Of a stretch of DNA of 34,774 nt, positions 1,831 to 18,738 are shown piece by piece. Both the position numbers and the translations under genes were made by a program. The stretch lies in assembly GCA_030605125.1 (NCBI GenBank), contig JAUWBD010000030.1, positions 1 to 34,774 on the forward strand, in the 5' to 3' direction. This DNA is from Verrucomicrobiota bacterium (lineage in GTDB: Bacteria > Verrucomicrobiota > Verrucomicrobiia > Opitutales > Opitutaceae). The notes under the pieces are model-generated. The model saw only the letters and a program-made list of their open reading frames with translations, had not been told where the DNA came from and made no database searches. Position 1 is the first letter of the stretch. Every line of letters starts with the position of its first letter.

Positions 1831-3657
1831 ATGCCCCTCACCCGCTTCTCCGTCGCCCCGCTTCACAAACTCACCCGCACGCTCGCCGCCGTCGCCATGG
1901 GCCGCGCCGCGCCCGACCTCGTCATCACCGGCGCGCGCCTCCTCTCCACCTACACCGACCGCATTCTCCCCGACCGCGAGCTCTGGATCAAAGCCGGCCG
2001 CATCGCCTGCGCCCAGCCCGCCGGCACCGCCAAGAAACACTTCGCCGCCTCCGCCACCCCGCGCGTCCCCCATTTCGACGCCGCCGGCGCCCTCCTCGCC
2101 CCGGGCCTCGTGGACCCGCACGTGCACATCGAGAGCTCGATGATGACCGCCTGCGCCTACGCCGAGGCCGCCCTGCTCAACGGCACCACCACCCTCTTCT
2201 GCGATTCGCACGAGATCGGCAACGTCTGCGACGCCGAGGGCGTCGAATGGATGCTCCGCGATACCCGCCAGGCCCCGCTCAACATCTACCTCACCGTCCC
2301 CAGCACCGTCCCCGCCACCTCTCCCAAGTTCGAAACCGCCGGCGGCGACCTCACCCCCGCCAAGATCGGCGCGCTCTTCGACCGCTGGCCCGAGGCCCTC
2401 GCCCTCGGCGAAAAAATGGACTTCGTCCAAGTCGCCCACGGCGACCGCCGCTCCCACGCCATCCTCGCCGAGGCCCTTCGCCGCGGCCGCCCCGTCTGCG
2501 GCCACATCTACGGACGCGAGTTCGTCGCCGCCGGCGCCGCCTCCGGCATCACCGACACCCACGAGGCCATCGACCGCGACATCGCCGACGATTTTTTGGA
2601 GAACGGCGTCTGGGTCTTCCTCCGCGGCGGCAATCCCTCCACCCCCTGGCACTCCCTCCCCGAGGCAATCAAGACCGTCACCGAACTCGGCGCCTCCACC
2701 AAACGCATCTGCGTGTGCACCGACGACCGCGACGCCGACGACCTCTTCCTCTTCGGTCTCGACTGGGTGGCGCGCCAAGCCCGCGCCGCCGGCCTCCCCG
2801 CCACCACCGCCTGGGCGGCAGGCTCGCTCCACCCCGCCACCCGCTACGGCCTCGACGGCGAGATCGGCGGCCTCGGCCCCGGCCGCCGCGCCGACCTCGT
2901 CCTGCTCGACGACGACCTCAAGCCCCACACCACCTGGTTCGGCGGCCAGCTCGTCGTCAAAAACCGCCGCATCACTCCGCTCCTCGACCGCGCCCTCTCC
3001 ACCCGCTTCGCGTATCCGAAAAAGGCCTACGCCACGGTCAAGCTCCCGCCCGCCGCCCGCTCTGCGCCGCTCACCCCCGCGCTCCCAAAACGCGCCGTCA
3101 CCGCCAACGTGATCCGCACCGGCCTGCCCGGCATCATCGTCCACCACGAGCGCCTGCGCCTCGAGCCTGCCTCCTCCTGGGCCGAGCACTTCGCCGCCCA
3201 CGGTCTCTGCTTCGTCAGCGTGCTCGAGCGCCACGGCCGCTCCGGTGCGGTCGCCCACGGTCTGCTCAAAGATTTCGGCCTGCGCTCCGGTGCCGTTGCG
3301 AGCACGGTGGGCCACGACGCGCACAACCTCATCGTCGCCGGCACCAACGAGCCCGACATGCGACTCGCCGTCGAAACGCTCCGCACGCTCCGCGGCGGCG
3401 TCTGCGTGGTCAACCAAGGCAAGGTTCTCGCCTCCGTCGCCCTCCCCATCGCCGGCCTGCTCAGCGACGAGCGCGCCCCGGTGGTCGCGAGGCAAACCAC
3501 GAAGCTCAAAAAGGCCTGGTCCGCCGCCGGCTGCACCCTGCCCTACATGGGTTTCAACCTGCTCCCGCTCTCGGTCATCCCCGCGCTCCGCCTCACCGAC
3601 AAAGGCCTCGTCACCGTCCCCGGCATGCAGCAGCTCCCGCTCTTCGAGCCGGCGTAA
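1831..3657 (+). CDS. ade: Adenine deaminase (EC 3.5.4.2)
   Basis: Converts adenine to hypoxanthine plus ammonia in purine salvage. It is a metal-dependent amidohydrolase of 608 residues, near the usual family size of 570-600. The metal motif 'DPHVHIESS' (His97, His99) and 'SHEIGN' (His127, Glu128) are present, followed by '[14 protein letters not shown]', 'CGHIYGREF', '[12 protein letters not shown]' and the typical C-terminal part ending '[15 protein letters not shown]'. The frame is open from 1633, but the first 66 codons read as intergenic DNA including the 7-bp array; ATG 1831 fits the family N-terminus. No Shine-Dalgarno sequence is visible. An AzgA-type purine permease lies 5.4 kb downstream, which would supply the substrate. 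A near-identical copy of the gene's last 67 bp occurs again at 8356-8422. Confidence 0.95.
3581..3647 (+). repeat. Direct repeat, upstream copy (3' end of ade)
   Basis: This 67-bp stretch encodes the C-terminal residues [20 protein letters not shown] and FE of adenine deaminase. It recurs in direct orientation at 8356-8422 with 64 of 67 bases identical. The three differences (3603, 3620, 3645) are all synonymous third-codon positions. The two copies are 4775 bp apart and bracket exactly one large gene. Confidence 0.9.
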
Positions 3658-3737: not shown

Positions 3738-6700
3738 GTGTCGCCGTCTTTCAGGTCCCTCCTCCTTCCGCTCTTCGCACTGCTGTGCCTCGGTCAACTA
3801 CCGGGCAGCCTCCTCGCCCACTCGTTCTCCGTAGGCGTGGATCTCGTCCAAGTCGCCACGTTTGCCGACCGCCCCCCGACAACGCTGGAGCTACCAATTA
3901 TCAGCTCGGACCCCGACTCTCCGCCGGTAGGCCTCACCGCTTCCAACAACTCCTCAGGCTGGCTCACCACCACGGTCTCGACCGACTCCACCGGCAACCA
4001 CTCCCTCCTTGTTTCCTGTGGGTATGACCAGGGTGCGGAACTAAGCGCACACGTCACGCTCACTGCGGGCGCGCACACCGTCACTCTCACGGTCAAGCGA
4101 CTCTGCATCGCCGGCTTCAACATACCCAAGGCGCTTCTGTCGCCAGACAGGTCCAAGATCTACGCGCTCTACTGGGATACTGTCCTGCTCCTCGACGCCG
4201 CCAACCAGAACGTGCTCGCACGCGCCCGACTGCCGCTCCCTCTCGGCTTCGCACTGAGCCATGTAGGCCGCTCCCTCTCCTTTTCGGAAGACGGGACCGC
4301 GATTCACGTGCACCTCGCCGGTTTGCCCAGGCTGTTCCGATTCTCCCCCGGCGACCTCTCACCGCTCGACCACCTCCCCCTGCCGCCCGCCACGAGCGCC
4401 TCCGCGCAACGCTTGTTCGCGGGCGAACGGAACGGCTTGCTCTACTTTATCCGTTACGGGGCGGCCATCTCCCTGGGGTATTATTCAGAGACCTTCAGCT
4501 ACCACCAGAGTGACATAGACATCGTCTCCCTCGCGTCGGGCGCTCTGGTGCAGACCTTCCGCTTTCCCGCACAGTCGCAGCCTGCCACGCTGGACGATCT
4601 CGTTCTGCATCCCAGCCGAGCCGAGCTGTGGGTGATCGAGCGCCTACAGGGGTCTTACATTTGGCTGCGGCGCCTCTCCCTCGATAACAACGGGCGCATA
4701 TTGAATGAAGTGGGCGTCCCCCTGGCCTTGGGGCACGCCGATTCGCAGCTCCAACCATGGTATGAAGGCCGGCATCGGCTCCTCCTGCGCCGCGACGTGC
4801 CGGTGGCCACCTTGGGATTCAGAAGAATTGACGTTACGGAGGAGGCTCCTCGATTGGCCGGCTCCAATCCGCTGGTGCTCACCCTGCTCGCCAACAACGG
4901 AGTCGGCGCCAACGCCGACACGATCTACCGCATCGATACGAAAGAAAGTCTCCCCACGTCGCTCTTCCGCCGACCCGACGGCTATAACCCTCTCCCCGTG
5001 GCCTTGTCCGACGATGGCCGGGACCTGCTCGCGCTCGATGATCGCCCCAATCTGCCTCGAGCCATCTTTCTGCCGGCCGCGCTTGCGGCCCTGCCAAGCA
5101 AGCAAGCCCGCATCCCCCAAGATGGCCAGATCGCCGCGCCCACCGACCAGCTCTCTTGGTATTCGCTGCCGGGTGCGGATTACTACCGCGTCTTTCTCTC
5201 ACTCGATGCCGCCGGGATATCCGCTCCCGAGCCCGATCCGTCCCTGCTGATCGGCGAGCCCACCGAAGCCAAGCTGACCCTAGCCTCCGCGCTCGAGCCC
5301 GGCGCGGTCTATCATTGGCGCGTCGATGCCGTCTTCGGCGACCGCACGGTGCAGGGGACGGTCCAAAGCTTCGCCATCGCCCACGCCCGCGTGGAAAGTC
5401 TGCCTCGTCAGGTCGCCACGCTTGCCGGCGCCCGCGTGCGCGCATTCTCGCTGCCGGTGACCACCACCGCTCCCGACACCGAATGGGAACTGGTGAGCGA
5501 CCACCCTTCGATCATCGTCCACACGCGGAGCGGCATCGGTCCGGGTAGCGCGGACATCGTGATCGACGCCCTTGAGTTGCCGGTCGGTCAGACAGCGGCC
5601 GCTCTCCGACTCGTCACCGCGGATGGCTCCGTGCCGGTTTCGATCCTCATCGCCACCCGTGCGCCCCAAGTCGCCGAAGCCGTCCTCCGTCCCGGCACAC
5701 CTCGCATCCTCGCCGTCGGCCCCGTGGTTTCCGTCTTCGGCGAATCATGCCGCTTCCTCTTCGTCCTCGACACGGCAGCAAAAGAGATCTCCCGCTGCGT
5801 CGTTCTCCCCTCCGCGACGCTCGACGTGTCCACCCTCATGCGCAGTTCCTGCGTGAGCGCGACCGCTCCGCTCCACATCCTTGGATCGAATTGGCGGCTC
5901 GGCGAATTCGATCCCGAGACGCTCGAGATCCGCCGAATCATCAACCATGTCGGCGAAGCCCGCGCGGTTCGGCCCGCCGACGATGGGCGACTGTGGATTC
6001 TCGACCGTAATCACACGCTCACCCGCCGCAACGCCGCCGGCACGGCCCCCGATCTGGTGCTGCCCGCCCTCGACGCCCGAGCGAGCTGTCTTTCGGCGTC
6101 GGGCACCACGCTGTTCACCCTCACGAACAACCAAACCTCCTCCAACGCGAGGTCGCAAACCATCCGCCGCTACGATGTCGAAGGCACGGCGTTGAAGCTC
6201 GTCGTCGAGCGCACCATCCCCGTCTCCGCCTTCACCAGCTCAAACGAGCAACTCATCCAAGGGCTCCATCCTTCACGGCTGGCTCATCGCGGCGTCATTT
6301 ACGACGAGTGGCTCGAGCCCGTCTTTCAGGCGCCCGCCAGCTTCACCTTTCCCGGCACGGCCGTCGCCGCGCTCACCGGGGCGTTGCTCCAGATGGGCGA
6401 CGACTACTCCGATGCCCGCGTGTTGCCGCCGGACTTTCCGCTCAACGCCCCGCTCGTGTTCGATCCCGAGACCGCGCAGCTCGTGTCTTTCGTGAACGGG
6501 CAGATTCACTTCGCCCCCACCTCCGCTTTTCCGGTAGCCGACGCCGGTTCCCTGTCGATCACCTCCGTGGGCGACAACCAAGCGGAGCTTGCGGTCCAGG
6601 ACCTGCCGGTCCGCGGCGCTTGGCCAAGCCACCTGCTTCTGCGCGAGATCTCCTACCGAGCCACGGGCACCTCGGCCCCTTGGACCAATCGCTCATTCGA

Positions 6701-8355: not shown

Positions 8356-8429
8356 CCGCGCTCCGCCTCACCGACAAGGGCCTCGTCACCGTCCCTGGCA
8401 TGCAGCAGCTCCCGCTCTTTGAATCGTGA
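8356..8429 (+). pseudogene. Remnant of the 3' end of adenine deaminase
   Basis: Bases 8356-8422 repeat the last 67 bp of the ade coding region (3581-3647) with 64 of 67 identical, and the same frame continues to a stop (…LFES, TGA 8427-8429). All three differences are synonymous, so the copy behaved as coding sequence while it diverged from the intact ade. No other part of ade is present; weak similarity may extend about 15 bases upstream. The intact gene ends …LFEPA instead, so the final codons differ. Confidence 0.85.
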
Positions 8430-8938: not shown

Positions 8939-9033
8939 TCATTCCAACAAGGAGAGGGCGGTGCCGCCCGCCCATCGTTGCTCCTCCGGTGACGCCCACT
9001 CCCCCGCCGCCCCCTTCCCCGTCTCCTCCGCGA

Positions 9034-9070
9034 CCTTCGGCTCGATCTTTGCGTCTTCGCGTCAAAAATC
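9034..9070 (+). repeat. Three-unit array with GTCAAAAATC tail, upstream of azgA-type gene
   Basis: Three imperfect units (CCTTCGGCTCG, ATCTTTGCG, TCTTCGCG) are followed by TCAAAAATC, ending 11 bases before the permease ATG. The array at 12375-12410 aligns to it nearly base for base. See the finding on the array family. Function unknown. Confidence 0.65.
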
Positions 9071-9081
9071 CGCGTCCTCCC

Positions 9082-10479
9082 ATGCTTCAACGCCTCTTCA
9101 AACTTCGCGAAAACGGCACCACCGTGCCGCGTGAGATCGTCGCCGGCTGCATCACCTTCGCCGCGATGGCCTACATCTTGGCGGTCAACCCCTCCATCCT
9201 CATGAACGGCTTCGGGGCCGATCCCGCCATCGGCTCCGACCCCGCCGCCGAGTCCCACCTCGCCGTGCGCGCCGCGCTCACCGCCGCCACCGCGCTCACC
9301 GCCGCCATCGCCACCTTCCTGATGGCCGCGCTCACCAACTTCCCCCTCGCCCTCGCGCCCGGCATGGGGATCAACGCCTTCTTCGCCTTCACCATCTGCA
9401 TCGCCGCCGGCGTGCCCTGGCAACAGGCGCTCGGCATGGTCTTCGTCAACGGCGTGCTCTTCCTCGTGCTCTCCCTCACGGGCATCCGCGAAAAGATCAT
9501 CCACTGCATCCCCTACTCGCTCAAAATCGCCATCACCGCCGGTATCGGCATCTTCCTCGCCTTCATCGGCCTCGAAAACGCCGGCATCGTCGTGGACCAC
9601 CCCAAAACGCTCGTCGGCCCCGGCGACTTCACCTCGCCGCCCGTTGCGCTCGCCCTCGCCGGGATCATCCTCACCGCCGTGCTCGTGGTGCGCCGCGTGC
9701 CGGGCGCCATTCTCCTCGGCATCGTCGCGATCACCCTCGCCGGCCTCCTCGTCCCCGACGGCAAGGGAGGCAACGTGACCGCGCTCCCGCCCGTCTCCGG
9801 GCTCGTCTCCGCCCCGCCCTCGCTCGCGCCGATCTTTCTCCAGCTAGACCTCTCCTTCCTCGCCGACTTCTCCGCGCTGCTCAAGGCCCTGCCCTTCATC
9901 CTCACGCTCCTGCTCGTCGATCTCTTCGACAACCTCGGCTCGCTCATCGGCGTCACCAAACGCGCCGGGCTCCTCGACCGCCAGGGCCGCCTGCCCAAGG
10001 CCGGCCGCGCGCTCGTCGCCGATTCCTGCGCCGCGATCCTCAGCTCGCTCTTCGGCACCAGCACGGTCGTCACCTACGTCGAGAGCTCCTCCGGCGTCGA
10101 GGCGGGCGGGCGCACCGGCCTCACCGCCGTGACCGTCGGCGTGCTCATGCTGCTCGCGCTCTTCCTCACCCCGCTCTTCCTCGCCATCCCCGCCGCCGCC
10201 ACGGCGCCCGCGCTTATCCTCGTGGGCGTGTTCATGCTCCAGTCGGTGGTCGAGATCGAGTTCAACGACCTGCGCGTCGGCATCCCCTGCGCGCTCGTCA
10301 TCATCGGCATCCCGCTCACCTTCAGCATCGCCGAGGGCATCGGCTTCGGCCTCGTCTCCGCCGCGCTGCTCGCCCTCCTCGCCGGCCGCCCCCGCGAGTT
10401 CCCCGCGCTCGGCTACATCCTCGCCGCCGTCTTCTTCCTCTCGTTCTTCAAAATCTTCCCCTTCCACGTCAGCCACTGA
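9082..10479 (+). CDS. AzgA-type NCS2 purine permease (adenine/guanine/hypoxanthine)
   Basis: An integral inner-membrane purine:proton symporter of the AzgA/GhxP branch of the NCS2 family. It has 465 residues, slightly longer than the roughly 445-residue E. coli members. Family motifs: 'TTVPREIVAGCITFAAMAYI' at the N-terminus, 'LAPGMGINAFFAFTI' (residues 90-105), 'DLFDNLGSLIGVTKRAGLLD' in the middle, and 'GTSTVVTYVESSSGVEAGGR', which is diagnostic for AzgA-like transporters. About 13-14 hydrophobic segments are visible. The frame is open upstream to 8989, but that part is proline/serine-rich and out of family; ATG 9082 matches the family start 'MLQRLFKL'. It fits functionally with adenine deaminase upstream: uptake followed by deamination. 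The exact base transported is not decided by sequence. Confidence 0.92.
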   Translation: MLQRLFKLRENGTTVPREIVAGCITFAAMAYILAVNPSILMNGFGADPAIGSDPAAESHLAVRAALTAATALTAAIATFLMAALTNFPLALAPGMGINAFFAFTICIAAGVPWQQALGMVFVNGVLFLVLSLTGIREKIIHCIPYSLKIAITAGIGIFLAFIGLENAGIVVDHPKTLVGPGDFTSPPVALALAGIILTAVLVVRRVPGAILLGIVAITLAGLLVPDGKGGNVTALPPVSGLVSAPPSLAPIFLQLDLSFLADFSALLKALPFILTLLLVDLFDNLGSLIGVTKRAGLLDRQGRLPKAGRALVADSCAAILSSLFGTSTVVTYVESSSGVEAGGRTGLTAVTVGVLMLLALFLTPLFLAIPAAATAPALILVGVFMLQSVVEIEFNDLRVGIPCALVIIGIPLTFSIAEGIGFGLVSAALLALLAGRPREFPALGYILAAVFFLSFFKIFPFHVSH

Positions 10480-10504
10480 CCCCGGGCCCCTCCCGTATTC
10501 AGTA

Positions 10505-10676
10505 TTTAACCACGGATGGCACGGATGGAACCACGGCGGGCCCGCCTATCCGCGCCCATCCGCGAAATCCGCGGTTCTGTATTCTTCCGAAAGCGATCCA
10601 TTTAACCGCGGATAGCGCAGATGAGCGCGGATAAAACCGTCTGAATCCGTGCTCATCCGTGCCATCCGTGGTCAAA
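10505..10676. repeat. 172-bp nested inverted repeat (two hairpin arms within each other)
   Basis: Outer arms 10505-10528 and 10653-10676 are complementary at 22 of 24 positions (sense of the right arm: CATCCGTGCCATCCGTGG). Inner arms 10547-10576 and 10604-10633 are complementary at 26 of 30. The loop is 10577-10603. Each arm is itself an array of ATCCGYG units spaced 10 and 9 bases apart, ending in GGTTAAA or GGTCAAA. It fills most of the 283-bp gap between the permease and GTP cyclohydrolase II-like genes. Confidence 0.9.
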
Positions 10677-10762
10677 AAATCTGCGCCTCCCTCGCCTTTG
10701 CTCCCTGGAAATTCCGGTTCGCGCTGCTCCCGGTCGGTCCGTAGTTCTTTCCGCTCCCTCCG

Positions 10763-12340
10763 ATGTCCGCCGCCTCCTTCGATCCCGCCAGCGCCGTCCC
10801 GCCCGAGTTCGCGCCTCTCGTCCGCGAGCTCCAGCACGCCACCGGCGCGATCCTCAAGCCCACCGCGCTTGAGGAGCGGCCGCTCTACGGCACCACGCTC
10901 TACATCGCCAACTGCGTCCTCGACACCCGCTACGGCCTCTTCCGCGCCTACGTCTTCCAGGACGTAATCGACAAGCACTACATCATCGCCCTCGCCCACG
11001 GCGACGTCACCACCGCGGCCACGCTCTACACCCGCCTGCACTCGAGCTGCGTCACCTCCGAAACCCTCCGCGGCTGCGATTGCGACTGCGTGCAGCAGCT
11101 CGAGGGCGCCTTCAAGGTCATCTCCGAAAAAGGCAACGGCGTGCTCTTCTACCTCCTCCAGGAAGGCCGCGGCGTCGGCTACGTCGGCAAGGCCCGCGAC
11201 CGCATGCTCGTGCAGGCCTCGCTCGACCAGGTGTCCACCTTCGCCGCCTACGCCGCCATGGGCCTCGAGAAGGACCACCGCAACTACGAGAACATCTCCC
11301 ACATCTGCTACCTGCTCGGCATCCGCGCCTCGTGGATCGTGCTCACCAACAACCCCGACAAGGTCAACGCCCTCCGCGACCAGGGCCTCGTCGTCGCCGG
11401 CACCGAGACGCTCGAGTTCGAGCCCTCGCCCTTCAACCTCGCCTACCTCAGCTCCAAGGCCGCCGGCGGCCACATCCTCAAGCGCCCGCACGAGACCACC
11501 GTCAAACGCGCCCTCCCGCCCGAGCCCGTCAAACCCTTCCGCCCCCACGCCCTGCCCGAGGCGCGGCGCTTCATCTACTCGGCGAGCTACTTCCTGCCGA
11601 TGAAGCCGGTGGACAACGACATCCTCCTCTCCGAGCTCCAGTTTCGCGAACTCTTCGGCAAGGACCGCATCGACCGCTACATGTCGGGGCCGAATCCGCT
11701 CGTCCGCGGCTACCGCGTCATCCGCGACCACCGCTACTTCGTCACCATCAATCCCGAGGCCCTCGCGCTCCACAAGAAGACGCAACCCGACGACCCCATC
11801 CTCGACCTCCTCACCACGCCCTACTGGTTTCGCGTCCACGTTTACTACGACATCGTCACCAGCCAGGACTACGTCGTCCTGACCCACGGCCACCCGCGCG
11901 TGCACGACGTCCCGGTGGTGCGCCTGCACAGCGAGTCGCTCTTCAACCGCTTCCCGCTCCGTCAGGCCGAGAACCGCGACAAGATGAAGCACGCCGTGAA
12001 ACACATCGTGAGCTACGGCGTGGGCGCGATGTTGCTCGTCTATAACGACGGCCGCGGCGCCGGCTTTGGCGCCTACGCCGCCGACCGCATGATGACCGAG
12101 ACCGGCCAGGCCCTGAGCAGCAACGAGGCCTACAAGAAGCTCGGCATCGGCTACGACAGCCGCGACTACGAGGCGGCCTTCACGCTCCTCAAGCACCACA
12201 TCCCGAACGAAAAGATCCAGATGGTGATGAACAGCCCCGGCAGCCTGGTGAAGAAGCCCGAGTATGCCGAGGCCTTGAACCGCCAGCGCTTCGACGTCGA
12301 GAAGTGGATCTTCCTCGACGACGACGCCGTCGGCGACTGA
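10763..12340 (+). CDS. Tandem GTP cyclohydrolase II-like protein
   Basis: A 525-residue protein made of two GTP cyclohydrolase II (RibA-type) domains; ordinary RibA is about 200 residues. GCH II opens the GTP ring to 2,5-diamino-6-ribosylamino-pyrimidinone 5'-phosphate, the first step of riboflavin synthesis. Domain 1 (about 40-230) keeps the zinc spacing C-x10-C-x-C (Cys96, Cys107, Cys109, in 'SSCVTSETLRGCDCDC'), the catalytic loop 'LLQEGRGVGYVGKARD' (131-146) and 'LTNNPDKVNAL'. Domain 2 (about 310-500) aligns at 'RLHSESLFNRFPLRQ', 'VYNDGRGAGFGAYAADRMM' and 'VMNSPGSLVKKP', but has no zinc cysteines there. So domain 1 looks active and domain 2 degenerate. No riboflavin genes lie next to it, so a role outside riboflavin synthesis is possible. 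No Shine-Dalgarno sequence is seen. Confidence 0.85.
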   Translation: MSAASFDPASAVPPEFAPLVRELQHATGAILKPTALEERPLYGTTLYIANCVLDTRYGLFRAYVFQDVIDKHYIIALAHGDVTTAATLYTRLHSSCVTSETLRGCDCDCVQQLEGAFKVISEKGNGVLFYLLQEGRGVGYVGKARDRMLVQASLDQVSTFAAYAAMGLEKDHRNYENISHICYLLGIRASWIVLTNNPDKVNALRDQGLVVAGTETLEFEPSPFNLAYLSSKAAGGHILKRPHETTVKRALPPEPVKPFRPHALPEARRFIYSASYFLPMKPVDNDILLSELQFRELFGKDRIDRYMSGPNPLVRGYRVIRDHRYFVTINPEALALHKKTQPDDPILDLLTTPYWFRVHVYYDIVTSQDYVVLTHGHPRVHDVPVVRLHSESLFNRFPLRQAENRDKMKHAVKHIVSYGVGAMLLVYNDGRGAGFGAYAADRMMTETGQALSSNEAYKKLGIGYDSRDYEAAFTLLKHHIPNEKIQMVMNSPGSLVKKPEYAEALNRQRFDVEKWIFLDDDAVGD

Positions 12341-12374
12341 GCCGCGCTGGGAGCCCCGCCTGATCCCTTCGCGA

Positions 12375-12410
12375 TCTTCGGCTCGTCCTTCGGGTCTTCG
12401 CGTCGAAAAC
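12375..12410 (+). repeat. Three-unit array with GTCGAAAAC tail, upstream of the zinc-ribbon gene
   Basis: Units TCTTCGGCTCG, TCCTTCGGG and TCTTCGCG are followed by TCGAAAAC, ending 14 bases before the GTG start at 12425. It aligns with the array at 9034-9070, with most of about 40 positions identical. Confidence 0.65.
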
Positions 12411-12424
12411 AAGGTCCCCCTCCC

Positions 12425-12628
12425 GTGCCCCCGCCCACCCTCTATCCCGACGCCGTCTGCGAGGCCTGCGGCGTGTTTGGCGCCTTCCGCTTCGACGGCG
12501 AAACGCTCTGCGCCGAGTGCTACGCCGGGCGCGGCTCCTGTTGCTCCAGCGAATTCAGCGGCGCTTCGCCCGGCACCCCTCCGCCCCGCGACCACGCTCC
12601 CGCGGAAGATTGCAAACCCCTCGCCTGA
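12425..12628 (+). CDS. Small cysteine-rich zinc-ribbon-like protein
   Basis: A 67-residue protein starting at GTG 12425. It has C-x2-C ('CEACG', residues 12-15), C-x2-C ('CAECY', 29-32) and a further Cys pair ('GSCCSSEF', 38-39), followed by a Pro-rich acidic tail. The paired CxxC knuckles suggest a single bound zinc ion. I recognise the general pattern (CxxC, phenylalanine-aspartate-glycine, CxxC, GSCC) from short Verrucomicrobiota proteins of unknown function. It lies 67 bases upstream of the next gene on the same strand and is probably co-transcribed. The low hydrophobicity and conserved knuckle spacing argue for a real gene despite its size. Confidence 0.6.
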   Translation: MPPPTLYPDAVCEACGVFGAFRFDGETLCAECYAGRGSCCSSEFSGASPGTPPPRDHAPAEDCKPLA

Positions 12629-12640
12629 GGCTCTTTCTTC

Positions 12641-12670
12641 TTCGCGGCCCTTCGCGCCCTTCGCGGTTGA
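12641..12670 (+). repeat. Three TTCGCG units with GGTTGAA tail
   Basis: TTCGCG occurs at 12641, 12651 and 12660 (spacing 10 then 9) and the last unit runs into GGTTGAA. It ends 25 bases before the ATG at 12696. The 10/9 spacing and the tail match the arms of the hairpin at 10505-10676 although the unit sequence differs. Confidence 0.65.
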
Positions 12671-12695
12671 ACATCCGGGCGCGGCGGGCTCCGCC

Positions 12696-13427
12696 ATGAC
12701 CTTCCTCTACATCGGCCTCGGCCTCTGGCTCCTCGCCAAACTCGTCCCCTACCTCGTCGCGATCTTCGAAAAGGAACCCATCCGCAACGACACCGTGCCG
12801 CAGGTTTACGACCCCGCCACCTGGAAGTCCGCCCGCTACGAGAAGAAACTCGCCGAGGCGCGCGCCGCCGGCCTCGCCCTGTGCGGCAGCCGCTTCACCG
12901 GCCGCCACGGCAGCGTCGTCAAAGGCTACGTCCTGCTTCACCTCACCCCCGACCACCGCATTGCCGTCGCGCTCATCTCCGCCCGTATCTGCGGGCTCGA
13001 GATGAACAAGGTCGAGGCGCGCAGCGTCTTCACCGACGGCACCGCCCACTACACCATGGATACCGCCGTGGTCCCCGACTTCACGGGCGTCATCACCAAG
13101 GACACCTGTTTCGACGGCTCGCTCGTCGAGGTCCTCGCCCTGCACGAGCGGCGGCTCGCCGAGCTCGCGAAACCCGTGGTGGCGCTCCAAGCCGAGCGCG
13201 CCTTCGACACGTTGGAGGAGGCCGAGGCCCGCCGCGGCGAGGCGATGGTCGCCGGCGGCTTCGCCACCTGGGCCGACCCCGCCCAGACCAAGCTCCGCCG
13301 CACCTGGAAAGGCGTCCGCGCCACTGTCCGCGCCAACCGCGAAAGCAACCGCCGCCTCGTCGCGGAGCAGACCGCGAAGAACAAAGCAAAGGCGAAGGCC
13401 AAAGCACCCGCGCCGCGCACCCCCTGA
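12696..13427 (+). CDS. Membrane-anchored protein of unknown family
   Basis: A 243-residue protein not recognised. An N-terminal hydrophobic helix ('FLYIGLGLWLLAKLVPYLVA', residues 3-22) is followed by 'IFEKEP' and a soluble domain with 'HGSVVKGYVLLHLTPDHRIA' and 'SVFTDGTAHYTMDTAVVPD'. A charged helical segment with Ala/Glu/Arg (about 150-190) and a basic tail of alternating Lys-Ala and Pro residues end the protein. The arrangement suggests a single-pass inner-membrane protein with a large cytoplasmic part, though topology is not certain. The frame is open upstream to 12477, but that overlaps the zinc-ribbon gene; ATG 12696 begins the plausible protein. No enzyme motif is visible. Confidence 0.75.
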   Translation: MTFLYIGLGLWLLAKLVPYLVAIFEKEPIRNDTVPQVYDPATWKSARYEKKLAEARAAGLALCGSRFTGRHGSVVKGYVLLHLTPDHRIAVALISARICGLEMNKVEARSVFTDGTAHYTMDTAVVPDFTGVITKDTCFDGSLVEVLALHERRLAELAKPVVALQAERAFDTLEEAEARRGEAMVAGGFATWADPAQTKLRRTWKGVRATVRANRESNRRLVAEQTAKNKAKAKAKAPAPRTP

Positions 13428-13454
13428 GCGGCAAGCCCGGCGCTTTGATTTGGC

Positions 13455-13547
13455 GTGGAACGCGTTGTTCTCACCGCGTTGACGCGGCGAAGCCGCGCCC
13501 GCAGCCGCCCGCAGCCGGCGCGTTGAGGACAAACGCGCTCCGCCTTC
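13455..13547. repeat. GC-rich intergenic repeat, copy 1
   Basis: A 93-bp segment beginning GTGGAACGCGTTGTTCTC and ending with CGCGCTCCGCCTT. It contains the near-palindrome CGCGGCGAAGCCGCG. It shares its first about 45 bases and its last about 20 with 18643-18738. The two ends are inverted relative to each other (AACGCGTTGT against ACAAACGCGCT), so the unit can fold on itself. Confidence 0.8.
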
Positions 13548-13718
13548 CAGCCGCCGCCGGCGTGAGAGCTATCAGTCGGGAGGGGGGCGCGTCATCAGGT
13601 GTGCTGTAGCGTTAGGGTAGAGCGCTGTCGCGATTGCTTTCCTCCTCCGAGTTTGAATTCATCGGACGTTTGTGCCGCCGCCCGGCCTGCGCGGGCGGTC
13701 GCCGCCTTCCACCCCTCC

Positions 13719-16016
13719 ATGCACTTCATCGACTGGCTGATCGTCGTCCTCCCTGTTTTGCTCGTTTTGAGCGTTTCGGTTTACTCGAAGCGCTATGTTC
13801 GAGGGGTGGTGGACTTCCTCGCCGCCGGCCGTGTGGCCGGGCGCTACGTCATCTCCGTCGGCGACATGACGGCCGGTCTCGGCGTCATCACCCTCGTCGC
13901 CCTCGTGGAGGCCAAATACCAGGTCGGCTACGCGCTCACCTTCTGGGAATACCTCGTGGTGCCGGTCGGCATCATCATGGGCCTGACGGGCTACTGCACC
14001 TACCGTTTCCGTGAGACGCGCTCCCTCTCCATCGGCCAGTTCCTCGAGATGCGCTACAACCGGCCCTTCCGCATCGTCGCCGCCTCGCTTCGCACGCTTT
14101 CGGAGATGTTGACCAACGCCATCGGGCCTGCGGTCGCGGCCAACTTCTTCATCTATTTCCTCGGCCTGCCGCACAAGGTGATGATCGCCGGCATCAACCT
14201 GCCCACCTTCGCGCTCGTGGTCGGCCTCGTGCTCTGCCTCTGCCTCGTCGTCATCTGGCCGGGCGGCCGCATCTCGCTGCTCATCTCCGACTCCTTCCAA
14301 GGCCTGATCGGCTACCCGATCTTCGTCATCATCGCCGGCTACATCTTCCTCAACTTCAACTGGGGCGACACCATCGCGCCGGTGATGATGGACCGCGTGC
14401 CCGGCGAGAGCTTCCTCAACCCCTTCGACATCTCCCAGCTGCGCGACTTCAACATCTTCGCGCTCGTGGTCGGCATCATCAGCCAGGTGCTCAATCGCGC
14501 CAGCTGGATCGGCAACGACACCAGCGGCTCCGGCCGCACGCCCCACGAGCAAAAGATGGCCGGCATCCTCGGCCAGTGGCGCAACGGCTTCTCCGGCCTC
14601 ATGTGCCTCCTCGTGGCCATCATGATCATCACGCTCATGACGCACGCCAAGTTCGCCGACAAGGCCTACGAGATCCGCCACGAGCTCACCCGCCAGGTCG
14701 CCGCCGAGGCCGTCGCCGATCCCGGGCTGCGCGCCGAGCTCGGCGCCCGCATGGCCGCCCTGCCCGTGCAGCGCCACCAGATCGGCGAGGATCCCCCGCT
14801 CTCCCGCGCCAACAACGTGGACACCCTCTACATGGACACCGCCCGCGAGACGCTCGGCGGCACGCCCGAGGGCAACCTCCAGTTCCAAAAGTTCCGCACG
14901 CTCTACAACCAGATGATGATGCCGGTGGCGCTGAAAAACCTGCTCCCGGTCGGCCTCATGGGCCTCTTCTGCCTGCTCATGATCATGCTCATGCTCTCGA
15001 CCGACGACTCGCGCGTCTTCAACGCCGCCTCGACGATCATCCAGGACGTGATCCTGCCCCTGCGGAAGACGCCCTTCACCCCGAAGCAACACCTCTTCTG
15101 GCTGCGCGCCTGCTCGGTCGCGGTCTGCGTGTTCTTCTTCGTGGTCTCGCTGTTCTTCGTGCAGCTCGACTACATCAACATGTTCCTCACGATCATGACC
15201 GCCATGTGGCTCGGCGGCGCCGGCCCGATCATGGTCTTCGGCCTCTACAGCCGCTTCGGCACCACCACCGGCGCCTTCTGCTCGCTCATCTTCGGCTCCG
15301 GCATCTCGATCGGCGGCCTCTTCGTGCAGCGCAACTGGGCCGATGTGATCTACCCCTGGCTCCAGACCCATGGCTGGGCCGATCCCTTCGGCCGCTTCCT
15401 CGAAAACGTCTCGGGACCGCTCAATCCCTACATCGTCTGGAAGATGGATCCGGTTAAATTTCCCATCAACAGCTACGAGCTCTACTTCATGGCGATGATG
15501 AGCGGCATCGTGGCCTACGTCGTCGGCTCGCTCCTCACCTACAAAAAGCCCTACAACCTCGACCGCCTCCTGCACCGCGGCATCTACGACGTCGAGGGGC
15601 ACCTCAAGACCAAGACGCCGTGGAACATTCGCACCATGTGGGGCAAGCTCGTGGGCATCACCCCCGAATACACCCGCGGCGACAAGATCATCGCCTGGTC
15701 CGTGGTGGGCTACGCCATCGTTTACAAGTTTGGCCTCTGCTTCCTCGCCGTGCTGATCTGGAACATGATCCGCCCCTGGCCGGCGCACTGGTGGAGCACC
15801 TACTTCTTCGTCACGAGCCTGGTGGTGACCGGCATCGTGGGCATCGTGTCCACCTTCTGGTTCCTGATCGGCGGCGTGATCGACATGCGCCGCCTGTTCA
15901 AGGACCTCGCCGCGCGCGTGGACAACCCCTTGGACAACGGCGTGGTCGAAGGCCACGTCTCGCTCGCCGACAAGGCGCTCTTCGAGGCGAAGACCCACAA
16001 GAAGCAGGACGACTGA
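13719..16016 (+). CDS. Sodium:solute symporter (SSS family) with long hydrophilic insertion
   Basis: An inner-membrane Na+-coupled symporter of the SSS/SLC5 family, 765 residues, substrate unknown. Typical members are 480-550 residues. The start at ATG 13719 gives a first helix 'WLIVVLPVLLVLSVSVYSKR'; 'DFLAAGRVAGRYVISVGDMT' is the conserved N-terminal signature after helix 1, and 'GLTGYCTYRFRETRSLSIGQ' and 'RYNRPFRIVAASLRTLSEML' follow. A hydrophilic insertion of about 95 residues (roughly 308-405) separates two halves of the transporter. 'LSTDDSRVFNAASTIIQDVI' is the usual signature after it. The C-terminus adds a segment with further helices and a charged tail. Pantothenate, proline, sugars or other solutes are possible. 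An upstream GC-rich repeat fills part of the 291-bp gap. Confidence 0.88.
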   Translation: MHFIDWLIVVLPVLLVLSVSVYSKRYVRGVVDFLAAGRVAGRYVISVGDMTAGLGVITLVALVEAKYQVGYALTFWEYLVVPVGIIMGLTGYCTYRFRETRSLSIGQFLEMRYNRPFRIVAASLRTLSEMLTNAIGPAVAANFFIYFLGLPHKVMIAGINLPTFALVVGLVLCLCLVVIWPGGRISLLISDSFQGLIGYPIFVIIAGYIFLNFNWGDTIAPVMMDRVPGESFLNPFDISQLRDFNIFALVVGIISQVLNRASWIGNDTSGSGRTPHEQKMAGILGQWRNGFSGLMCLLVAIMIITLMTHAKFADKAYEIRHELTRQVAAEAVADPGLRAELGARMAALPVQRHQIGEDPPLSRANNVDTLYMDTARETLGGTPEGNLQFQKFRTLYNQMMMPVALKNLLPVGLMGLFCLLMIMLMLSTDDSRVFNAASTIIQDVILPLRKTPFTPKQHLFWLRACSVAVCVFFFVVSLFFVQLDYINMFLTIMTAMWLGGAGPIMVFGLYSRFGTTTGAFCSLIFGSGISIGGLFVQRNWADVIYPWLQTHGWADPFGRFLENVSGPLNPYIVWKMDPVKFPINSYELYFMAMMSGIVAYVVGSLLTYKKPYNLDRLLHRGIYDVEGHLKTKTPWNIRTMWGKLVGITPEYTRGDKIIAWSVVGYAIVYKFGLCFLAVLIWNMIRPWPAHWWSTYFFVTSLVVTGIVGIVSTFWFLIGGVIDMRRLFKDLAARVDNPLDNGVVEGHVSLADKALFEAKTHKKQDD

Positions 16017-16156
16017 TCCTAGGCGGATCCAGGCTTTGATCCCGCGCGGCCTGTCGAGGCCGGGCGGGCCCGCCGCGTTGCCTCCCGGCCTTCGCCCCTC
16101 CGACGCGGCGGGTTTGGCGGTCGCGCGGCCTTGTGGCTACGGTTCTTGAACCCTCC

Positions 16157-16211
16157 GAAGCCGCGAAGAAGCCGCAAATGACCACAAAACGCGTAAAAGG
16201 CCCAAAAAGAA
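16157..16211 (-). repeat. Array-family repeat, minus orientation, degenerate
   Basis: Read on the minus strand it gives units CTTTTTGGGC, CTTTTACGCG and TTTTGTG followed by GTCATTTGCGG, then a CTTCTTCGCGG stretch. Unit spacing and the G-GTC tail match the other arrays, but the copy is degraded. Confidence 0.4.
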
Positions 16212-16267
16212 CGGGCCGTCGTTTGTGGCAGATCTGCTTGTTTTCATACCCTCACCCGATGGCTTCA

Positions 16268-16303
16268 GACTTTTTCAACGCCAAGGGCACGAAGGTCGCG
16301 AAG
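16268..16303 (-). repeat. Three-unit array with GTTGAAAAAGTC tail, minus orientation
   Basis: On the minus strand the units CTTCGCGAC, CTTCGTGCC and CTTGGC run into GTTGAAAAAGTC, with a 9-base spacing. It is divergent from the plus-strand array that begins 32 bases away. Confidence 0.55.
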
Positions 16304-16334
16304 CATGAATCAGTTGATATCCGCAAGCTTGCGA

Positions 16335-16371
16335 TCTTCGGCTCGTTCTTGGCGGCTGCGCGCTAAAGATC
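16335..16371 (+). repeat. Three-unit array with CTAAAGATC tail, plus orientation
   Basis: Units TCTTCGGCTCG, TTCTTGGCG and GCTGCGCG are followed by CTAAAGATC. It shares GCGATCTTCGGCTCG with the array at 12375 and lies about 300 bases upstream of the PEP-CTERM gene start. Confidence 0.55.
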
Positions 16372-18583: not shown

Positions 18584-18642
18584 CATAAATAAAAAAGTAG
18601 CCGGCTTGGCGGGGCTTCGGCGTCCCGCCCTGTTGCCTTAGG

Positions 18643-18738
18643 GTAGAACGCGTTGTCCTCAACGCGTTGACGCGGCTAAGCCGCGCCCGGACCAGCGCGT
18701 TGGGACCAGCGCGTTGGGACAACGCGCTCCACCTTTGG
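18643..18738. repeat. GC-rich intergenic repeat, copy 2
   Basis: A 96-bp segment beginning GTAGAACGCGTTGTCCTC and ending ACAACGCGCTCCACCTT, with a central CGCGGCTAAGCCGCG. The sequence ACCAGCGCGTTGGG is tandemly doubled in its right half. It matches 13455-13547 and sits against the 3' end of the TPR gene. Confidence 0.85.

Follow-up and report, generated by a model that had tools for sequence, protein, structure and literature searches.

The stretch of DNA analyzed here (the window) comprises 34,774 nucleotides of contig JAUWBD010000030.1 from a member of the Opitutaceae (Verrucomicrobiota). Between a xanthine/uracil-type permease gene and a GTP cyclohydrolase II-type gene (Pfam assignments) it carries a composite hairpin made of short three-unit arrays, and further arrays lie elsewhere in the window (Table 1). 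Read from the tail, on the strand opposite to that used in a preliminary description of this DNA, strict arrays have the form AACC-RCRRAK-RCRRAK-RCRRAK, and the unit spacing of about 9 and then 9 to 10 bases agrees with that description. The strict pattern is matched three times in the window and not once in 100 dinucleotide shuffles, and the hairpin at 10500 to 10680 has folding z scores of −10.3 as RNA and −8.8 as DNA. The copies at 9025, 12366, and 16326 belong to one GCGAAG subtype in which the gap before the third unit is wider. In other places such arrays form the ends of an element whose sole gene encodes GxxExxY (PF13366/TIGR04256), a PD-(D/E)XK nuclease-like protein of ~120 residues. 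Neither a GxxExxY gene nor a gene of the four-helix-bundle family PF05635, discussed below, was detected in the window by tblastn with 56 GxxExxY and 29 four-helix proteins (E 1e-3); the copies in the window would be gene-less ones.

Table 1. Arrays and the composite hairpin in the window
Feature	Position	Strand	Remarks
Composite hairpin, four arrays forming two inverted pairs	10500..10680	.	RNA minimum free energy −99.1 kcal/mol
Array, ACGGAT units	10508..10535	+	2 mismatches vs strict pattern
Array, GCGGAT units	10548..10576	-	Exact match to strict pattern
Array, GCGGAT/GCAGAT units	10604..10632	+	Exact match to strict pattern
Array, ACGGAT units	10645..10673	-	1 mismatch vs strict pattern
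Array, GCGAAG units	12640..12668	-	Exact match to strict pattern
GCGAAG-subtype array, CGCGAAG-CGCAAAG-CCGAAG	9025..9068	-	Direct-repeat family
GCGAAG-subtype array	12366..12409	-	Direct-repeat family; 84% like 9025 copy
GCGAAG-subtype array, degenerate (70%)	16326..16369	-	Direct-repeat family
Degenerate array, TTTTTCAAC-GCCAAG-ACGAAG-GCGAAG	16272..16303	+	Read in sequence

The genome that contains the window (G000; 4.88 Mb in 271 contigs) has 147 strict arrays, 72 and 75 on the two strands, compared with 0 matches to the pattern written backwards, and strict arrays are present in 66 of 145 genomes sampled from the phylum. A scan of species genomes, which informs on the breadth of array occurrence and not on its frequency, found at least 117 array stretches; the titles among the 80 listed, many of them metagenome bins, span many phyla and include Proteobacteria, Acidobacteria, Bacteroidetes, Planctomycetes, Chloroflexi, Spirochaetes, Nitrospirae, and cyanobacterial genera, together with the archaea Methanothrix and Ethanoperedens. 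Among 57 distinct arrays at the own-genome loci examined, 39 have three identical units, where 3.4 would be expected if units were drawn independently. Units are alike within an array and different between arrays, which bears out the preliminary view of one layout with changing units rather than simple copying. The statement that no named family has this structure also stands: none was found for the arrays in the literature searched, and Rfam gave 0 hits at gathering score in the window.

The idea that many GxxExxY proteins start with a translated array prompted a search for PF13366, and 293 matches were found in 69 of the 145 phylum genomes. Arrays and gene occur together (57 genomes with both, 9 with arrays only, 12 with the gene only, and 67 with neither; Fisher p 8e-19, uncorrected for kinship). 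We examined 109 GxxExxY loci (110 genes, two of them at L310) from the 293 matches, mostly the best-scoring ones and including four loci of the own genome or G068 that were taken in the knowledge that arrays lay there; a further PF13366 region, L279, yielded no gene by tblastn. The element has the layout TTAACC-unit-unit-unit-[gene]-unit′-unit′-unit′-GGTTAA, with inverted ends and outward tails. Arrays with no more than two mismatches lie upstream of the gene in 37 of 109 cases and downstream in 42 of 110, compared with 2/106 and 0/110 in distant windows and 7/109 and 5/110 in the wrong orientation; a looser limit of four mismatches gives 70 and 86 of 109 over backgrounds of 16 to 24 and is not relied on. 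The elements of the own genome, covering five of its seven PF13366 matches, have ends of the types ACGGAG (C96), GCGAAG (C78), ACGGAT (C158), ACGAAA (C164), and GCTAAA (C84). The L255 gene scores 152.7 bits against a cutoff of 35, and 147.1 against 22 (TIGR04256 / PF13366 profiles). Because other end words, of AATCCTGT or ACAGGAT types, stand at the GxxExxY genes of L276, L316 (G090, G104), L287, L304, and L322, RCRRAK covers only part of the word space.

The two ends of an element match each other. When left flanks of GxxExxY elements were aligned locally with inverted right flanks, the median score was 50 vs. 24 for swapped partners, and 52 of 109 elements lay above the 99% level of swapped pairs, whereas none of 66 small control genes exceeded the 99% level of the control set. 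At the variable unit positions of 54 elements, agreement from end to end was 82.9% within an element and 47.4% across elements, and for the spacers 43.7% and 30.3%. Since units agree between ends far more than spacers do, it is the words, more than a continuous stem, that are kept.

The unit also follows the protein. We placed unit labels on a tree of 67 GxxExxY domains (116 columns), with 53 units called automatically, 5 by eye, and 9 taken from the genomes of the prediction test described below; the tree left out loci without callable near-RCRRAK units, which favors clear cases, and 24 of its 64 inner branches are open. Labels of whole units change 34 times, compared with 51.1 when shuffled, and 0 of 500 shuffles were as low. 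Single positions behave in the same way at position 6 (7 changes vs. 26.5 shuffled), position 4 (13 vs. 22.6), and position 3 (14 vs. 25.2), each with 0/500 as low, whereas position 1 does not follow the tree (18 vs. 18.8; 204/500 as low). One branch (Shimodaira-Hasegawa-like approximate likelihood ratio support of 88) separates 36 proteins, all with G-ending units, from a group of 31, in which T or A is the last base of the unit for 30. Because this clade split confounded the covariation of protein columns with unit positions, that analysis was set aside, and we relied on the tree counts.

Gene-bearing and gene-less copies with the same ends occur within the own genome for the ACGAAA and GCTAAA types. 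There are 25 copies of the ACGAAA array, of which 2 flank a GxxExxY gene, and 22 of the GCTAAA array, of which 2 flank another GxxExxY gene (backwards control 0 for both); GCTAAA arrays are absent from 58 of 61 family genomes. From array counts we predicted an ACTAAT-flanked GxxExxY gene in G182, G185, and G151 and a GCTAAA-flanked one in G146. The ACTAAT-flanked gene was found in G182 and G185, and ACTAAT-type ends were also found in G146, which has eight such arrays.

An alignment of 56 GxxExxY proteins contains invariant D67, K79, and Q91 and nearly invariant E27, E77, and Y95, among them the D..ExK..QxxxY residues of the Cas4/lambda-exonuclease branch. The AlphaFold2 model (mean predicted local distance difference test score 95.9) is a single 123-aa domain, and its best match in the PDB by Foldseek is SSO0001 (E 6e-4, template modeling score 0.44), a Cas4 protein, followed by lambda-type exonucleases with modest scores. 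By sequence, no convincing PDB relative was detected, one match having E 0.63. GxxExxY shares its fold and these residues with the Cas4/lambda-exonuclease branch of PD-(D/E)XK proteins but differs in its single small domain and in the modest strength of even the best structural match. No described role for GxxExxY was found in the literature searched.

The arrays of the preliminary description are real, and they lead beyond what it proposed, to a view of arrays as ends that give an address to minimal elements carrying a nuclease gene; the association is a strong one, and the mechanism is what we infer. We put at roughly two in three the probability that the arrays are intact or remnant terminal inverted repeats of minimal, mobile-looking elements of ~450 bp with GxxExxY as their only gene, a confidence lowered by the fact that the loci examined are a selected part of all PF13366 matches. 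Each end would have an outward TTAACC-like tail followed by three 6-nt units, spaced by about a turn of the helix, and the unit would most likely be recognized on DNA by GxxExxY itself or by a partner that tracks its lineage. Such recognition would keep the six units of an element and its dependent solo copies alike and would let them shift when the specificity shifts. GxxExxY may bind the units, cut DNA, and move the element.

Several observations weigh against this reading. Nine array-bearing genomes have no PF13366 match, and 12 gene-bearing genomes have no strict arrays; on each side taken alone, over half of the GxxExxY genes examined have no near-exact array, and some genes carry other words; and only 2 of the 80 species-scan loci listed have GxxExxY beside the array. 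A fixed alignment score of 40 is reached by 87 of 109 elements but also by 10 of 66 control genes, and of 19 close inverted pairs of solo arrays, only 11 have the same unit in both arrays (4.9 expected). The own genome has eight ACTAAT arrays and no ACTAAT gene copy among the five of its seven PF13366 matches that were examined, and the predictions failed for ACTAAT in G151 (67% complete; one gene found) and for GCTAAA in G146 (eight genes read). No movement of an element was seen, and neither a target-site duplication nor a clean empty site was found for the GxxExxY element. Finally, three sites (between gatA and gatB, at an ABC-transporter pair, and a third) each hold a GxxExxY element in more than one genus, which looks like long residence.

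The sites of GxxExxY that were read lie between protein genes and not inside 23S rRNA, among them gatA/gatB (Pfam) and what we take to be ABC-transporter, NAD-synthetase-like/hemL-like, rmlB/rmlA-like, and serS/tilS-like genes. At two of the shared sites genera have different words, the change extending to all six units or almost all: ACGAAA stands at the ABC-transporter site of G000, G085, and G091 (nearly so in G122) but GCGAAT in G060 and G099, and GCTAAA at the third site of G000 but ACTGAT/ACTTAT in G075 and G088. The word at a fixed site may have changed in concert or been replaced by reinsertion. Orientation is also constrained: 42 of 110 GxxExxY genes are co-oriented with both neighbors, none is opposed to both, and 2 read with the upstream but against the downstream neighbor; in this count, which uses a codon model from the own genome, neither neighbor was resolved for 35 genes and only one neighbor for the remainder. 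The baseline is 185 to 97 for same-strand adjacent gene pairs in an own-genome sample. The simplest reason for this orientation would be selection for expression from a host operon; a step at the RNA level is possible.

Some sites differ between related genomes. G085, of the same genus, keeps the permease and cyclohydrolase genes around a gap of 81 bp without array or hairpin, compared with 283 bp in the window. When two 200-kb stretches of G183 and G080 were compared (~80 kb aligned, 95.6% identity), G183 was found to have two hairpins of AATG words, as well as an insert in which inverted AATG arrays flank a four-helix gene; G080 has different and shorter sequence there, and the insert lacks clean edges. 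In the same two genomes (G183:C1:598750 and G080:C1:343433) different palindromic inserts stand at the same spot, one of them GTAG-tagged and similar to repetitive extragenic palindromes (GGTAGCGCAGACT...AGTCTGCGCTACG). Six own-genome loci with differing flanks share a composite repeat of ~200 bp, in some cases truncated, which can contain as many as three arrays that differ in word type; no target duplication was seen around it by eye. It resembles a miniature inverted-repeat transposable element (MITE), with ends like TGATACCAGCAGC / GCCGTCGGTATCA (loci L019, L022, L027, L029, L091, and L092). At L148, positions 6000 to 6700 of a Thermoanaerobaculales record, hairpins of ACAGAG, ACGAAG, and GCAGAT words are nested in one another, as though insertion into an existing element were favored.

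The same-site conservation across genera, the strong co-orientation with neighbors, and the link of unit and protein on the tree could also be accounted for if GxxExxY were a settled cellular gene and the arrays its binding sites, for example operators for its own regulation or the sites of a nuclease acting in repair or defense, with the solo arrays as other targets. We consider this improbable, because solo arrays form inverted pairs, lie inside the MITE-like composite at six loci with differing flanks, and can be nested in one another, and because G085 has no counterpart of the window hairpin in its gap.

Elements with array ends are not confined to GxxExxY. The four-helix-bundle family PF05635 is present in 100 of the 145 phylum genomes, and we examined 30 of its best matches, of which 29 remained after L383, at a contig end, was dropped. 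These genes also have inverted ends (median score 48, compared with 25 when partners were swapped; 16 of 29 exceed the 99% level). Their words are of 7 to 8 nt, such as GGAGTCA and GAACGGA, and the set has the same architecture as the GxxExxY elements. The nearest described system is the 23S rRNA intervening sequence (IVS) with its S23p, or four-helix, open reading frame (ORF; PF05635). According to PMC4990558, the IVS of Coxiella has three tandem GACAGAT heptamers upstream of its ORF and a 28-bp terminal stem, and excision by RNase III is reported. The IVS and the elements described here are both small, with inverted terminal repeats able to form a stem and with one small ORF in sense orientation, and complementary ends with tandem short repeats are found in the GxxExxY and four-helix elements as well. 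The GxxExxY elements differ from the IVS in that they lie, at the sites read, between protein genes, encode a nuclease-like protein, and space their units by 9 to 10 rather than 7; the four-helix set shares the IVS ORF family (by construction), and the GxxExxY set does not. We infer a link between the Coxiella IVS and the intergenic elements.

Tentatively, and with rather more doubt than confidence, we suggest that GxxExxY elements are a class of minimal autonomous mobile elements that encode a single protein, a Cas4-like PD-(D/E)XK nuclease, and bear at their ends an evolvable 6-nt address word, six times in all. Address and protein would coevolve, and the address could change while the site stays the same. 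With the 7- to 8-nt design of the four-helix elements included, the rRNA IVS would be the only part so far described of a superfamily that reaches across many bacterial phyla and into some archaea. We found no paper describing array elements in the literature searched (by array words, GxxExxY, IVS-like, and mobile-element terms), a body that mostly excludes subscription papers and preprints. Tying GxxExxY (69/145 genomes) and four-helix genes (100/145) to the arrays gives both a testable function, and a natural series of address words with cognate nucleases would allow a protein-DNA code to be read. The origin of rRNA intervening sequences, raised as an open question in PMC4990558, would gain a concrete answer to test.

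If the arrays were RNA structures, they would be mRNA hairpins cut by RNase III like the 23S IVS and harmless within operons, and the stem would keep the two ends of an element alike. The window hairpin is stable as RNA (z −10.3), and co-orientation with both neighbors (42 GxxExxY and 10 of 29 four-helix genes, with 0 and 1 opposed to both and, in the four-helix set, 8 unresolved on both sides) recalls the sense-oriented ORF of the Coxiella IVS (PMC4990558). Selection on an RNA stem predicts that differences between the ends keep G.U pairs more often than they break pairing, and this asymmetry is absent: the counts are 34 vs. 42 at the unit positions of 54 GxxExxY elements, 188 vs. 224 over the whole ends of 87, and 53 vs. 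85 in 21 four-helix elements. The stem as the selected feature was rejected on this ground. Spacers are also far less alike than units, and a stem leaves unexplained both the three direct repeats of each arm and the link of unit and nuclease on the tree; we regard an RNA origin of the arrays as quite unlikely.

Repetitive extragenic palindromic (REP) elements, with the related REPINs and bacterial interspersed mosaic elements, resemble the arrays in being abundant intergenic palindromes, often in inverted pairs. If the arrays were REP-like and moved by Y1 transposases of the REP-associated tyrosine transposase (RAYT) type, their association with GxxExxY could be a side effect of an abundance of small mobile DNA in these genomes. 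Y1_Tnp matches and arrays are associated over the 145 genomes (58/8/44/35, p 2e-5, uncorrected for kinship), and GTAG repeats are said (PMC3733652) to be highly enriched in Opitutus terrae. Yet G017 and G128, with 85 and 26 strict arrays, have no Y1_Tnp match, which rules out Y1/RAYT mobilization as a requirement, and G042, G072, and G054 have 28, 15, and 12 Y1_Tnp matches and no strict arrays. Only one of four Y1 loci in the own genome has an array in its 1.5-kb flanks. A REP element is a 20- to 40-bp palindrome tagged on one side with GTAG or CGTC, whereas array tails are AACC or variants and each arm has three direct repeats. A Y1 origin of the arrays is accordingly very doubtful. At G140:C1:723729-725730, three Y1_Tnp matches stand in tandem with an exact spacing of 836 bp. 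MITEs with terminal inverted repeats also offer a parallel, in that gene-less copies share their ends with a gene-bearing element of the same genome, but here the gene-bearing form has a nuclease-like gene and no recognized transposase, the ends are modular and vary between elements, and no target duplication was found.

The position of arrays was read in a 432-kb sample, the window plus 397 kb of other contigs, with genes called by our own script; because several of these contigs were picked for holding arrays and arrays cluster, so that they are not independent sites, the sample speaks to position and not to density. Allowing two mismatches, it contains 39 arrays, of which 5 are inside called genes and 34 intergenic, the latter with balanced strands and distributed as 16 in convergent, 8 in >>, 6 in <<, and 4 in <> gaps; convergent gaps make up 28 of the 173 intergenic gaps of at least 60 bp. 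The preliminary description had seen arrays just upstream of start codons, in the orientation of the gene, and had raised the possibility of transcribed leaders. Neither preference holds in the sample, and a leader, riboswitch, or start-codon element was rejected on array position and strand, on the absence of Rfam hits, and on the lack of G.U bias between element ends.

Two other repeats lie in the window. Two intergenic copies of 76 nt, at 13436-13511 and 18624-18699 and 79% alike, are arranged around a ACGCGTTG...GACGCGGC-GAAGCCGCGCC palindrome and form a separate repeat family. A 67-nt stretch at the end of an adenine-deaminase-like gene (3581-3647) recurs 4.8 kb away at 8356-8422, after a large gene with weak PKD/Ig matches, and its 96% identity suggests a recent local duplication.

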